Below are positions 8,044 to 14,821 of a stretch of 24,778 bases of DNA, piece by piece. The stretch comes from a virus. Made by a program: the position numbers and the translations under genes. The DNA lies in IMG/VR virus record IMGVR_UViG_3300007539_000198, positions 1 through 24,778 of that record; one strand, written 5' to 3'. The notes below the pieces were generated by a model. The model was not told where the DNA came from, ran no database searches, and worked only from the letters and a program-made list of their open reading frames with translations. How positions within the stretch are numbered: position 1 is the stretch's first letter; each line of letters starts with the position of its first letter.

Positions 8044-8120
8044 GGTCACGTAGCTCAACTGGATAGAGCAACTGACTTCTAATCAGTAGGTTGAGGGTTC
8101 GAGTCCTTCCGTGATCGCCA
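8044..8120 (+). tRNA. tRNA-Arg (anticodon UCU), CCA encoded
   Basis: A complete cloverleaf can be drawn. The acceptor stem 8044-8050 pairs with 8110-8116 (one G-U), the D stem is 8053-8056/8066-8069, the anticodon stem 8071-8075/8083-8087 with loop CTTCTAA, and the T stem 8093-8097/8105-8109 with loop TTCGAGT. Anticodon TCT is at 8078-8080 and reads AGA/AGG. G8117 is the discriminator and CCA is encoded at 8118-8120. It lies between + strand genes with no promoter of its own, so it is probably processed from the operon transcript. It fits the AGA-rich late genes of this phage. Confidence 0.95.
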
Positions 8121-11947: not shown

Positions 11948-12877
11948 ATGAGTTTTGCAGCGCTAAAACGTAACCGCACAGATCTTTCCGCTTTAGTAGA
12001 AGCAGCGGGTAATGCAGGTCCAGAAGAACAGAAGAAGCATAATGTTACTGATGATCGCTTCTGGCAACCAACTCGAGATAAAGCTGGTAATGGTTATGCT
12101 GTAATTCGTTTCCTTCCTGGAGACGCAGAAGCACCTACTCCTTGGGTGCGTTATTGGGACCACTTCTTTAAGGGTCCAACAGGTCAATGGTATGTAGAGA
12201 AATCTCTTACATCTATTGGTCAAGCCGATCCATTAGCAGAGATGAACTCTAAGCTTTGGAACCAAGACGGTTCAGAAGAAGCAAAGCGGACAGTTCGCGA
12301 ACGTAAACGTAACCTACGTTATGTTGCTAATGTATTGATTATCTCAGATCCATCAGCACCAGAGAATGAAGGCAAAGTAATGCTCTATCGCTTTGGTAAA
12401 AAGATCTTTGATAAGATTATGGATACAATGCAGCCTCAGTTCCCTGACGAGAAACCTATCAATCCATTTGATATGTGGGAAGGAGCTGACTTTACATTGA
12501 AGATTCGTAAGGTAGAAGGTTATCCGAATTATGATACATCCGCCTTTAAGTCTGCATCGGCCATTCCTGGTAGTGATGAAGAACTAGAAGCAATCTATAA
12601 TCAACAACATGATCTATCAGAGTGGACAGATCCTAAGAACTATAAGACATACGATGAATTGCAATCTCGTCTGGCTATGGTATTGGGCGAGTCTTCTACT
12701 CCAATGACAGCAAAGGTCATGGAGAGCCTAGATGATATTGATTCTATTCCGGGCTTTGATTCTCGTCCTGCTCCTACAGCAGCTACAGCACCCGAACCAA
12801 CTATTCGTACGGCTGAGTCTTCTATGGAAGAGGATGATACAATGAGTTATTTCGCTAAACTGGCAGCGGAAGACTAA
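11948..12877 (+). CDS. 32: Single-stranded DNA-binding protein gp32
   Basis: The 309-residue protein has the three gp32 parts. The N terminus carries a LAST-like basic motif (L-K-R-N-R-T-D-L) for cooperative binding. The OB-fold core includes F-W-Q-P-T-R-D-K-A-G-N-G-Y-A-V-I-R-F-L-P, Y-V-E-K-S-L-T-S-I-G-Q-A-D-P and N-L-R-Y-V-A-N-V-L-I-I-S-D-P. The C terminus is acidic (E-E-D-D-T-M-S-Y-F). It coats ssDNA in replication and recombination. There is no cysteine at all, so the zinc site of T4 gp32 is absent. All 16 arginines use CGN codons. GGAG precedes the ATG by 7 nt, and a strong promoter lies upstream. Confidence 0.95.
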   Translation: MSFAALKRNRTDLSALVEAAGNAGPEEQKKHNVTDDRFWQPTRDKAGNGYAVIRFLPGDAEAPTPWVRYWDHFFKGPTGQWYVEKSLTSIGQADPLAEMNSKLWNQDGSEEAKRTVRERKRNLRYVANVLIISDPSAPENEGKVMLYRFGKKIFDKIMDTMQPQFPDEKPINPFDMWEGADFTLKIRKVEGYPNYDTSAFKSASAIPGSDEELEAIYNQQHDLSEWTDPKNYKTYDELQSRLAMVLGESSTPMTAKVMESLDDIDSIPGFDSRPAPTAATAPEPTIRTAESSMEEDDTMSYFAKLAAED

Positions 12878-12884
12878 AAATCCA

Positions 12885-12964
12885 CCTAAGAGTCTGCAGC
12901 TCTTGGAATGGTGTGTGACCCTCAGCACTTAGTGAGGTACGGGCTTCCGGTATACAGAGAAGCT
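12885..12964 (+). ncRNA. Candidate structured RNA downstream of gene 32
   Basis: Between the gene 32 stop and the terminator, three hairpins can be drawn in a GC-richer stretch: AAGAG/CTCTT (12888-12892/12900-12904, extendable by CC/GG around a bulge), CCTCA/TGAGG (12920-12924/12933-12937) and GGCTTC/GAAGCT (12942-12947/12959-12964, one G-U). No open frame covers it. It could be a 3' UTR stabiliser or a small RNA released from the gene 32 transcript. It matches no RNA family I recognise. Confidence 0.45.
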
Positions 12965-12966
12965 AG

Positions 12967-12997
12967 AAAGGGAGGCACCTAGGAAGGCCTCCCTTTT
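12967..12997. terminator. Strong bidirectional intrinsic terminator
   Basis: A perfect 10-bp stem AAAGGGAGGC / GCCTCCCTTT (12967-12976/12987-12996) encloses a 10-nt loop, with T runs on the + strand and the complementary A run giving a U tract on the - strand. It lies between convergent genes, gene 32 (+) and the tape-measure gene (-), and should end both transcripts. Confidence 0.9.
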
Positions 12998-13000
12998 GAT

Positions 13001-14821
13001 TTAATTAACCACAAGGTCGTTTGTTACGGGTGTTATGTTTTGAGGTGAAAGTGGTGGTATATCACTTCCACCACCTGATGTAGAACCATTTACAGTATTA
13101 GTATCTCCACCATTAAAGATGTAGGTATCACCAGATTGAGTAATAGATCCACCATCAATGAGTCTTGAAACAATATCATTTACGGCGCCACGCTCTGCAT
13201 AGGCTTGAGTTCCTATTCTGGTTTTTCCACCGCCACTACCTCTAAAGAACCTACTGCGAATACCTTGGAAGCCCCTGCCTGACATATTTTCTAGTCTTCT
13301 GGCACTTAGATTTTCAATAGGTAAGAATGCATCATTTGGATCTTCATTTGCCACAACATTATAATCCATTATTTGTTTATAGCTATCCCATGTAGTATAA
13401 TCATCAGGATCAAATCCAGGAGCCTTTTCTGGGAATCTAAAGAAATGTTTTTCTTGAGCCCATGTCTTTAATTCTTCTGTTGACATTTTCATTAGTAATT
13501 CACAATAGGCACCCCATTCGCCTTGAGGCATACCTTGGCCACTAGTGGTTTTTATCCAATCCTTCATACCTTTTTGAATTGCTAACAATACTGCTATAGC
13601 ACCTTTACCTCTATCAGCAGCAACTTTTTCCATATCAAAAGCAGCTTGAATCATAGGTGCATCAATAGAACCATCCGCTAGAGAGCTTGGAGCTACCATC
13701 ATTTGTAGTGCGGCACCAGGTACTGACCCTGCAATTTTAAATGCACCAGATAATGTCTTGCCCGGTATTGATACTCCACTCATTAGAGTTCTACCAACCA
13801 TATTGTTGAGAGGGTTGAATCTTCCCTTTGTAATCGTTTGGGCCTTGGCTGCTACATTTGCGGCTGTTTCTACTGCAGCTTCAACCGGATTAAGAGCAGC
13901 CACAACAGCTGTTGCCCCTACTCTGTTCTTTACTATTCTACCATAATTTCTATATCTATTTCCTCTACCTCTTTCACTATCCATATCGGTGACTCTACGG
14001 TTTGGATCAATAGACTTGGTAGGATCTGCTACGAGTGGCTTAACGGTAGTTGTATCTATATCAACCGCGGATGTAGATGGATCGGGAGAGGCTAACGCCT
14101 GGGCTTCTCTTCTAACAACCATTGCATCGGCGCCACCTGAAAGTCTAGTAACATTACCATTCTTTACACTGTAATTTTTTCCAGTAGCATCTCTAAAGGT
14201 ATTTGTACCAACATTCTTTTGGAGATCTAATTTTTGCCCCTGATAATCAACTGTTACCTTTGGAATTGGTTTTGGTAAAGTTGGTGTTACTCTTGGAGCT
14301 TGAGCTGGTTGTTTAAGTGTAGGTGTAACCCTTGATACCTTAGGTGATGTGAGAGGAGCTGTGGTATTTTTTTTAATCTCCGAATTTTGGGATTGAATAT
14401 CATTTAATCTTTGATTAATACTGGCAATACTTAAGGTAATTTTTTGATCTAATGGATTCAATACAGTTTCTACAGCTTCTTTGACCTCTGTCTTTTGTCT
14501 TGAATCCAATTTATCTACATAAGCTTTTATTGCTGCGGCACCTGCAGCCAAACCCAAAGCACCCTGAGCCAAAGCACCCATTGAGGGTCTGCTGGTTTCA
14601 CCAGAAGATTTGTCTACTCTAGAACTTGCCTTTTGTGCCTGAAGTTTTTTATTCTGAGCCTCTAGTTGATCAAACTTGTTTCTGTCTTGACTTTTTAAAA
14701 AGGCCGTAAAGTTTTTATTGAGTCCTTCAACACCATCACCAACACGATTAATGCCTTCAAGAGTCTGGGCATTAAGTTTCTTTTGCTCTTCGAGCTTTTG
14801 GGCTAGGTTTGTTAAACTCAT
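13001..14821 (-). CDS. 29: Tape-measure/baseplate hub protein, gp29-like
   Basis: The 606-residue protein is close in length to T4 gp29 (590). It begins with a heptad-like coiled coil (about residues 1-65), then an Ala/Gly hydrophobic segment (81-100), a Pro/Thr-rich linker and another Ala-rich helix (A-A-V-E-T-A-A-N-V-A-A-K-A), an arrangement typical of tape-measure proteins. It lies directly downstream of the gp26 and gp51-like chaperone genes, where tape-measure genes sit in most tailed phages. By T4 knowledge it fills the tube lumen and sets tail length. The start (ATG) immediately follows the gp51-like stop (TAAATG). Identity rests on context and composition more than on motif. Confidence 0.65.
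   Translation of the reverse strand: MSLTNLAQKLEEQKKLNAQTLEGINRVGDGVEGLNKNFTAFLKSQDRNKFDQLEAQNKKLQAQKASSRVDKSSGETSRPSMGALAQGALGLAAGAAAIKAYVDKLDSRQKTEVKEAVETVLNPLDQKITLSIASINQRLNDIQSQNSEIKKNTTAPLTSPKVSRVTPTLKQPAQAPRVTPTLPKPIPKVTVDYQGQKLDLQKNVGTNTFRDATGKNYSVKNGNVTRLSGGADAMVVRREAQALASPDPSTSAVDIDTTTVKPLVADPTKSIDPNRRVTDMDSERGRGNRYRNYGRIVKNRVGATAVVAALNPVEAAVETAANVAAKAQTITKGRFNPLNNMVGRTLMSGVSIPGKTLSGAFKIAGSVPGAALQMMVAPSSLADGSIDAPMIQAAFDMEKVAADRGKGAIAVLLAIQKGMKDWIKTTSGQGMPQGEWGAYCELLMKMSTEELKTWAQEKHFFRFPEKAPGFDPDDYTTWDSYKQIMDYNVVANEDPNDAFLPIENLSARRLENMSGRGFQGIRSRFFRGSGGGKTRIGTQAYAERGAVNDIVSRLIDGGSITQSGDTYIFNGGDTNTVNGSTSGGGSDIPPLSPQNITPVTNDLVVN

Follow-up and report, generated by a model that had tools for sequence, protein, structure and literature searches.

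The question raised by this locus is whether the stretch of DNA behind gene 32 holds an RNA in its own right, or is the 3' end of an mRNA followed by its terminator. The DNA studied, referred to below as the window, is the IMG/VR record IMGVR_UViG_3300007539_000198, a virus record of 24.8 kb taken at full length (positions 1 to 24,778). T4-like genes in the window comprise gp32 (11948-12877) plus tail genes, and the tblastn matches of its gp32, themselves annotated as gp32, lie in Phage C48C1 (52%), Methylophilales phage Melnitz (50%) and cyanophages. Downstream of the gp32 stop codon the order is the element stretch, a GC-rich hairpin and the end of a convergent ORF at 13001. An earlier note had described positions 12878-12966 as a stretch of higher GC than its flanks, without an open frame, that forms three successive hairpins. 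Its GC content was indeed 51%, compared to 43% on both flanks and 36% in the window, placing it in the top 1.8% among 89-nt windows, and no plus strand ORF of at least 60 aa runs across it. All three stem-loops were borne out, with the correction that the second is one stem of an H-type pseudoknot; an 11-bp hairpin comes next, at 12966-12997. Folded alone, 12878-12966 performed no better than chance (z -0.62, with 49 of 200 shuffles equally good), while addition of the 3' hairpin brought the fold z to -2.25. Since the fold of the lone sequence was not significant, the case rests on comparison with relatives.

A search of IMG/VR with the gp32 protein provided a starting set of 80 loci. At most of these, gp32 was followed by an ordinary terminator or another gene; several carried an altered form of the window element. 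At still others the element was related but had a different centre, in one case (L059) preceded by a tRNA-Pro. The family was enlarged by pattern scans of IMG/VR with conserved stretches, and two false matches were removed, leaving 80 distinct sequences. Of these, 26 share the type of the window copy (type B) and 54 form a second type (type A). Members share a common architecture, consisting of AAAnCC, a hairpin P1 closed by GG, a U, an H-type pseudoknot with stems S1 and S2, a hairpin P4, AUA or similar, a hairpin P5 and usually GA. The central sequences of the types differ, with CGGU/ACCG crossing ACUGG/CCAGU in the type A pseudoknot and GUGU/GCAC crossing CCUCA/UGAGG in that of type B, but order and topology are identical, and the type B covariance model picked up type A members outside its alignment with E values of 1e-13 to 2e-17. 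Regarding retrieval bias, 6 of the 80 members were found solely by a pattern containing the P5 loop, the rest by patterns or proteins that exclude it. Judged from these comparisons, the stretch behind gp32 appears to belong to an apparently uncatalogued family of folded phage RNAs of ~125 nt. In the window, the gene and the parts of the element are as follows, with pairing statistics referring to type B:

11948-12877, plus strand: gene 32 homologue, a ssDNA-binding protein of 309 aa (ORF and tblastn), with the element directly downstream.
12878-13003, plus strand: whole structured RNA element, family type B (alignment of 26 relatives, covariation, model R2).
12882-12911, plus strand: hairpin P1, pairing 12882-12884 with 12909-12911 and 12886-12892 with 12900-12906 (covariation; double-sided changes in 5 of 10 pairs, 87% of cells paired).
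12894-12899, plus strand: palindrome CUGCAG in the P1 loop (UCUGCAG), candidate kissing loop 1, invariant in type B.
12913-12928, plus strand: pseudoknot stem S1, GUGU 12913-12916 with GCAC 12925-12928 (covariation; GUGU/GCAC, GAGU/GCUC and AAGU/GCUU, 100% paired in 26 sequences).
12920-12937, plus strand: pseudoknot stem S2, the second hairpin of the earlier note, CCUCA 12920-12924 with UGAGG 12933-12937 (covariation; CCUCA/UGAGG changes to CAUCA/UGAUG, 100% paired).
12943-12963, plus strand: hairpin P4, GCUUC 12943-12947 with GAAGC 12959-12963, and C12948 with G12957 (covariation; double change from G-C to U-A, 98.7% of cells paired).
12966-12997, plus strand: hairpin P5, the terminator of the earlier note, 11 bp (covariation, fold z -2.84; double changes in 8 of 11 pairs, 100% of cells paired).
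12978-12983, plus strand: palindrome CCUAGG in the P5 loop ACCUAGGAAG, candidate kissing loop 2, a position that is palindromic in all 80 members.

Covariation was measured separately for the two types. Among the 26 type B sequences, 96.5% of cells were paired and 18 of 39 pairs showed double changes; the covariation score was 0.343, compared to 0.149 for shuffles and at most 0.104 for slid partners, and none of 500 shuffles reached it. When partners were slid by one to three columns, paired cells fell to 37-52%. Type A behaved likewise, with 96.2% of cells paired, double changes in 20 of 33 pairs and a score of 0.356 versus 0.150 in shuffles (0 of 500 reaching 0.356); slid partners left 27-45% of cells paired. 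Both pseudoknot stems covary in type B. In type A, S2 displayed double changes in three pairs, while S1 is invariant and thus uninformative on pairing. In this test, which the earlier note had named, compensatory changes were abundant in both types and by a wide margin, indicating that the structure is real; on the strength of the alignments, we regard the predicted RNA fold as established with near certainty.

An optional domain of ~33 nt, GGGGAAAGCCU-GAC-AAUnnC-GUC-GAACGUACCC, occurs just upstream of the element in some members, and its inner stem changes in step (GAC/GUC, GGC/GCC and AGC/GCU). It precedes 15 type A members and one type B member (L016:1890-1927, L219, L204, L271 and 12 more) and is absent from the window.

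We then asked whether the element belongs to gene 32. Based on a conservative C-terminal motif for calling gp32, 22 of the 80 distinct members follow this gene immediately, 34 lie in or beside tRNA arrays, and the neighbours of 24 were not resolved. Many of the tRNA-array copies begin 2-8 nt behind a tRNA gene on the same strand, whereas the window copy follows gp32 instead. Contigs of 30-221 kb as a rule carry one strong copy each, and among 22 family contigs, 13 contain a gp32 homologue as well. Because copies stand behind either gp32 or tRNA genes, the element is not gp32-specific and constitutes an independent gene. The earlier note had derived a stable RNA from the gene 32 transcript. There is strong support for a conserved structured RNA at the 3' end of that transcript, but in light of the copies at tRNA arrays this origin is too narrow for the family. 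In the window phage, the RNA gene would sit in the 3' untranslated part of gp32 and presumably be released from, or carried by, its transcript.

Several neighbouring features were recorded in passing. The sole tRNA of the window is a tRNA-Arg (TCT) at 8044-8120, and tRNA-Arg is also a frequent family neighbour in other contigs. Loci L001 and L002-L006 encode the same gp32 protein, followed either by a type B element at once or by an extra ORF plus a type A element; such a difference in the DNA downstream of an identical gp32 points to a possible recombination hotspot. Unrelated-looking non-coding stretches of 70-100 nt plus a terminator stand behind gp32 in L022, L026, L028, L065 and Melnitz-3 (L362:2407-2530), so that the gp32 3' end seems to be a common site for RNA genes. 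Finally, a second structured RNA with its own terminator lies behind tRNA-Pro on the minus strand of L357 (positions 1-280, in the 221-kb contig G001). It contains CUGGUGACGUGAAAACCAGAUAGG, which resembles the family P4 plus AGAUA, gives a weak match to model R1 (15.6 bits) and occurs in four related contigs.

The earlier note had further placed a strong terminator directly after the element. The hairpin is present at 12966-12997 and in the window it ends in UUUUGAUUU, one of 35 cases among the 80 members with 6 U in 8 nt after P5. It is nonetheless part of the RNA. In 19 of 80 members the best 8-nt stretch after P5 holds no more than 2 U, and in four (L242, L263, L325 and L330) a tRNA gene begins ~20 nt or less after P5, so transcription must pass P5 there and the hairpin seems not to be simply a terminator. 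Our terminator scan did not list P5; since it was limited to loops of 8 nt and the P5 loop has 10 nt, the missing call is evidence neither way. Given its conserved palindromic loop and its frequent lack of a U-run in relatives, P5 is an integral domain and the element reaches to ~12997-13003. P5 may still end transcription in the window, with its loop conserved for another reason.

These observations bear on the best-surviving of the alternative explanations, a cis-acting 3' UTR whose pseudoknot and hairpins only shield the gp32 mRNA from 3' exonucleases and whose P5 is an intrinsic terminator. The members directly behind gp32 and the U-runs just described are as this explanation would have them. 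We nevertheless consider it unlikely, as it is at odds with the tRNA-array copies, the tRNA genes close behind P5 and the U-poor members; a palindromic loop would be superfluous in a terminator, and mRNA protection alone leaves both the palindromic loops and the tRNA-array copies unexplained.

What, then, are the loops conserved for? The P5 loop holds a perfect 6-nt palindrome in 80 of 80 distinct members, compared to 44 of 466 (9%) other strong hairpins of the same DNA. Five hexamers are in use, CCUAGG (37 members), CUGCAG (31), CCGCGG (7), CUCGAG (3) and CCAUGG (2). On trees made without the P5 hairpin, the palindrome switched at least 8 times in type A and at least 5 times in type B, at least 13 times in total. 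Each switch needs two to four letter changes, and no intermediate was present among the members. The central two letters vary together (UA, GC, AU, CG). As neighbours in the chain they are unable to pair within it, and their joint change therefore signals symmetric kissing between molecules. Covariation of neighbouring letters supported symmetric kissing loops in OLE and GOLLD that were seen by cryo-EM (Kretsch et al., PMC12286853), and the P5 loop displays this feature of GOLLD- and ROOL-type RNAs as well. It is thus likely, as far as sequence variation can tell, that copies of the family RNA pair with each other.

A similar tendency was found in P1, where 16 of 20 clusters carry a palindrome of at least 6 nt, compared to 5.2 in shuffles. 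The longest extend up to 10 nt (CCUACGUAGG, CCUGUACAGG and CCCGUACGGG), and the remaining four clusters have one of 4 nt only (GGCC, GCGC, TCGA). In type A, none of the 11 members with CUGCAG in P1 has CUGCAG in P5, versus 31 of the 43 members without it (Fisher P 1.4e-5, uncorrected for kinship), which looks as if the two putative kissing contacts were kept apart. The two are not always separate, since member L271 has CUCGAG in the P1 and P5 loops alike. At L292, near position 14700, a P5 hairpin with a CCTAGG loop stands behind tRNA-Pro with no recognisable P1, pseudoknot or P4.

Three other readings of the palindromes were weighed. They might act in DNA, where a short palindrome can be a site at which a dimeric protein binds, a nuclease cuts or recombination takes place, and the contigs with identical gp32 and very different downstream sequence (L001 vs L002-L006) would suit a recombination site. 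We find this improbable, because the palindrome always occupies the apical loop of an RNA hairpin that shows covariation, its stem being free to vary, and because a protein site would keep one sequence rather than the five in use. A trans-acting antisense RNA, with loops pairing to host or phage mRNAs and palindromes as seeds, is more improbable still: although small size, a structured body and exposed loops suit a base-pairing small RNA, all five P5 hexamers are self-complementary, and a seed following its target would not require that every time. Least credible of all is pairing of the P5 loop inside its own RNA, for example with the P4 strand in type A (CUGCAU/AUGCAG), since, despite a 5-nt complement elsewhere in the RNA in 18 of 31 type A members with a CUGCAG loop, P4 remains CUGCAU alongside CCUAGG loops, CUGCAG loops persist with UUGCAU P4 stems, the type B complement is at most 3-4 nt, and P5 showed no joint change with P4 or P1 of the same chain.

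The element was also compared with catalogued RNAs and genomes. Against Rfam 15 (4227 families, including GOLLD, ROOL, pRNA, tmRNA and riboswitches) it scored below every gathering score, and far below in a permissive search; only the window tRNA and three tRNAs in 16 relatives reached a gathering score. BLAST against 50,697 phage records returned one 33-nt chance match in a microvirus for the window element and none for a composite type A sequence. Models R1 and R2 scored at most 18.6 bits on eight marine isolates plus T4, and the four places inspected fell within coding sequences and were judged to be chance. The exact type A pattern occurred at three places in 84,980 bacterial and archaeal genomes, each without the remaining architecture and likewise judged to be chance. 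No description of the family was found in the open-access journal literature searched.

GOLLD is the closest counterpart. It is phage-encoded, structured and often beside tRNA genes, and has palindromic symmetric kissing loops whose neighbouring letters covary (PMC12286853). In contrast to the family, it exceeds 800 nt, forms a 14-mer cage and has a different sequence and secondary structure. ROOL, encoded by phages or prophages close to tRNA islands, likewise uses kissing loops for its assembly (PMC12286853), but it has ~660 nt, an octamer cage and many more contacts. The family has an Rfam match to neither. Encoding by a phage near tRNA genes, as in GOLLD and ROOL, was found in many of the relatives and not in the window itself. 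Both RNAs are 5-6 times larger than the family RNA and make at least 5 contacts per chain; two loops therefore do not by themselves imply a cage. Judged by sequence and predicted structure, the family is like GOLLD and ROOL in type of contact and often in genomic place, and is a member of neither.

Smaller RNAs offer partial likenesses. The phi29 pRNA is a phage RNA of ~120 nt that forms rings through loop-loop pairing; this pairing joins mutually complementary loops rather than self-complementary ones, and the RNA belongs to a different phage group. The family had no Rfam match to it. The HIV-1 dimerisation initiation site carries a 6-nt palindrome in a 9-nt loop with flanking purines. This hairpin, with its GC-rich apical-loop palindrome, forms a kissing homodimer (PMC4588261), but it is one hairpin of a retroviral genome leader and the likeness is limited to the contact. 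The T4 stable RNAs C and D (species 1 and 2) have 139 and 119 nt and lie at the end of the T4 tRNA cluster. We rejected them as homologues, since NC_000866 gave no match to R1 or R2 at E 1 and the likeness is one of place and size only.

Taken together, we propose that the family is a compact phage RNA gene whose product associates with itself and functions in the manner of GOLLD and ROOL; we hold this complete statement to be moderately probable. The product would be a non-coding RNA of ~125 nt composed of the P1 hairpin, the H-type pseudoknot, P4 and P5. In the window phage it would form the 3' end of the gene 32 transcript and in relatives a gene inside a tRNA array, with transcription and processing presumed in both settings. 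The P5-loop palindrome would pair with the P5 loop of another copy and, in most members, the P1-loop palindrome would do likewise. Homodimers would result or, where each molecule makes two different contacts, possibly rings or chains. By analogy with the role proposed for GOLLD and ROOL, the assembly may act in lytic growth as an RNA-only scaffold or compartment. More tentatively, and at less than even confidence, the family could represent a new class of very small phage RNAs that build open or closed RNA-only assemblies, either rings or filaments, via two separate palindromic kissing loops per molecule.

Work on GOLLD and ROOL in 2025 revealed RNA-only cages built by phage RNAs that are encoded near tRNA genes. 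The family described here adds a well-supported RNA family that current annotation has missed, and indicates that what looks like a 'terminator' hairpin can be the functional part of an RNA. At only ~125 nt, its RNA is easily made, mutated and solved, and its loop palindromes can be swapped, providing a test of whether copies must pair. If the more tentative reading is true, RNA oligomers would arise generally from phage tRNA islands and gene 32 transcripts rather than being peculiar to giant ornate RNAs.
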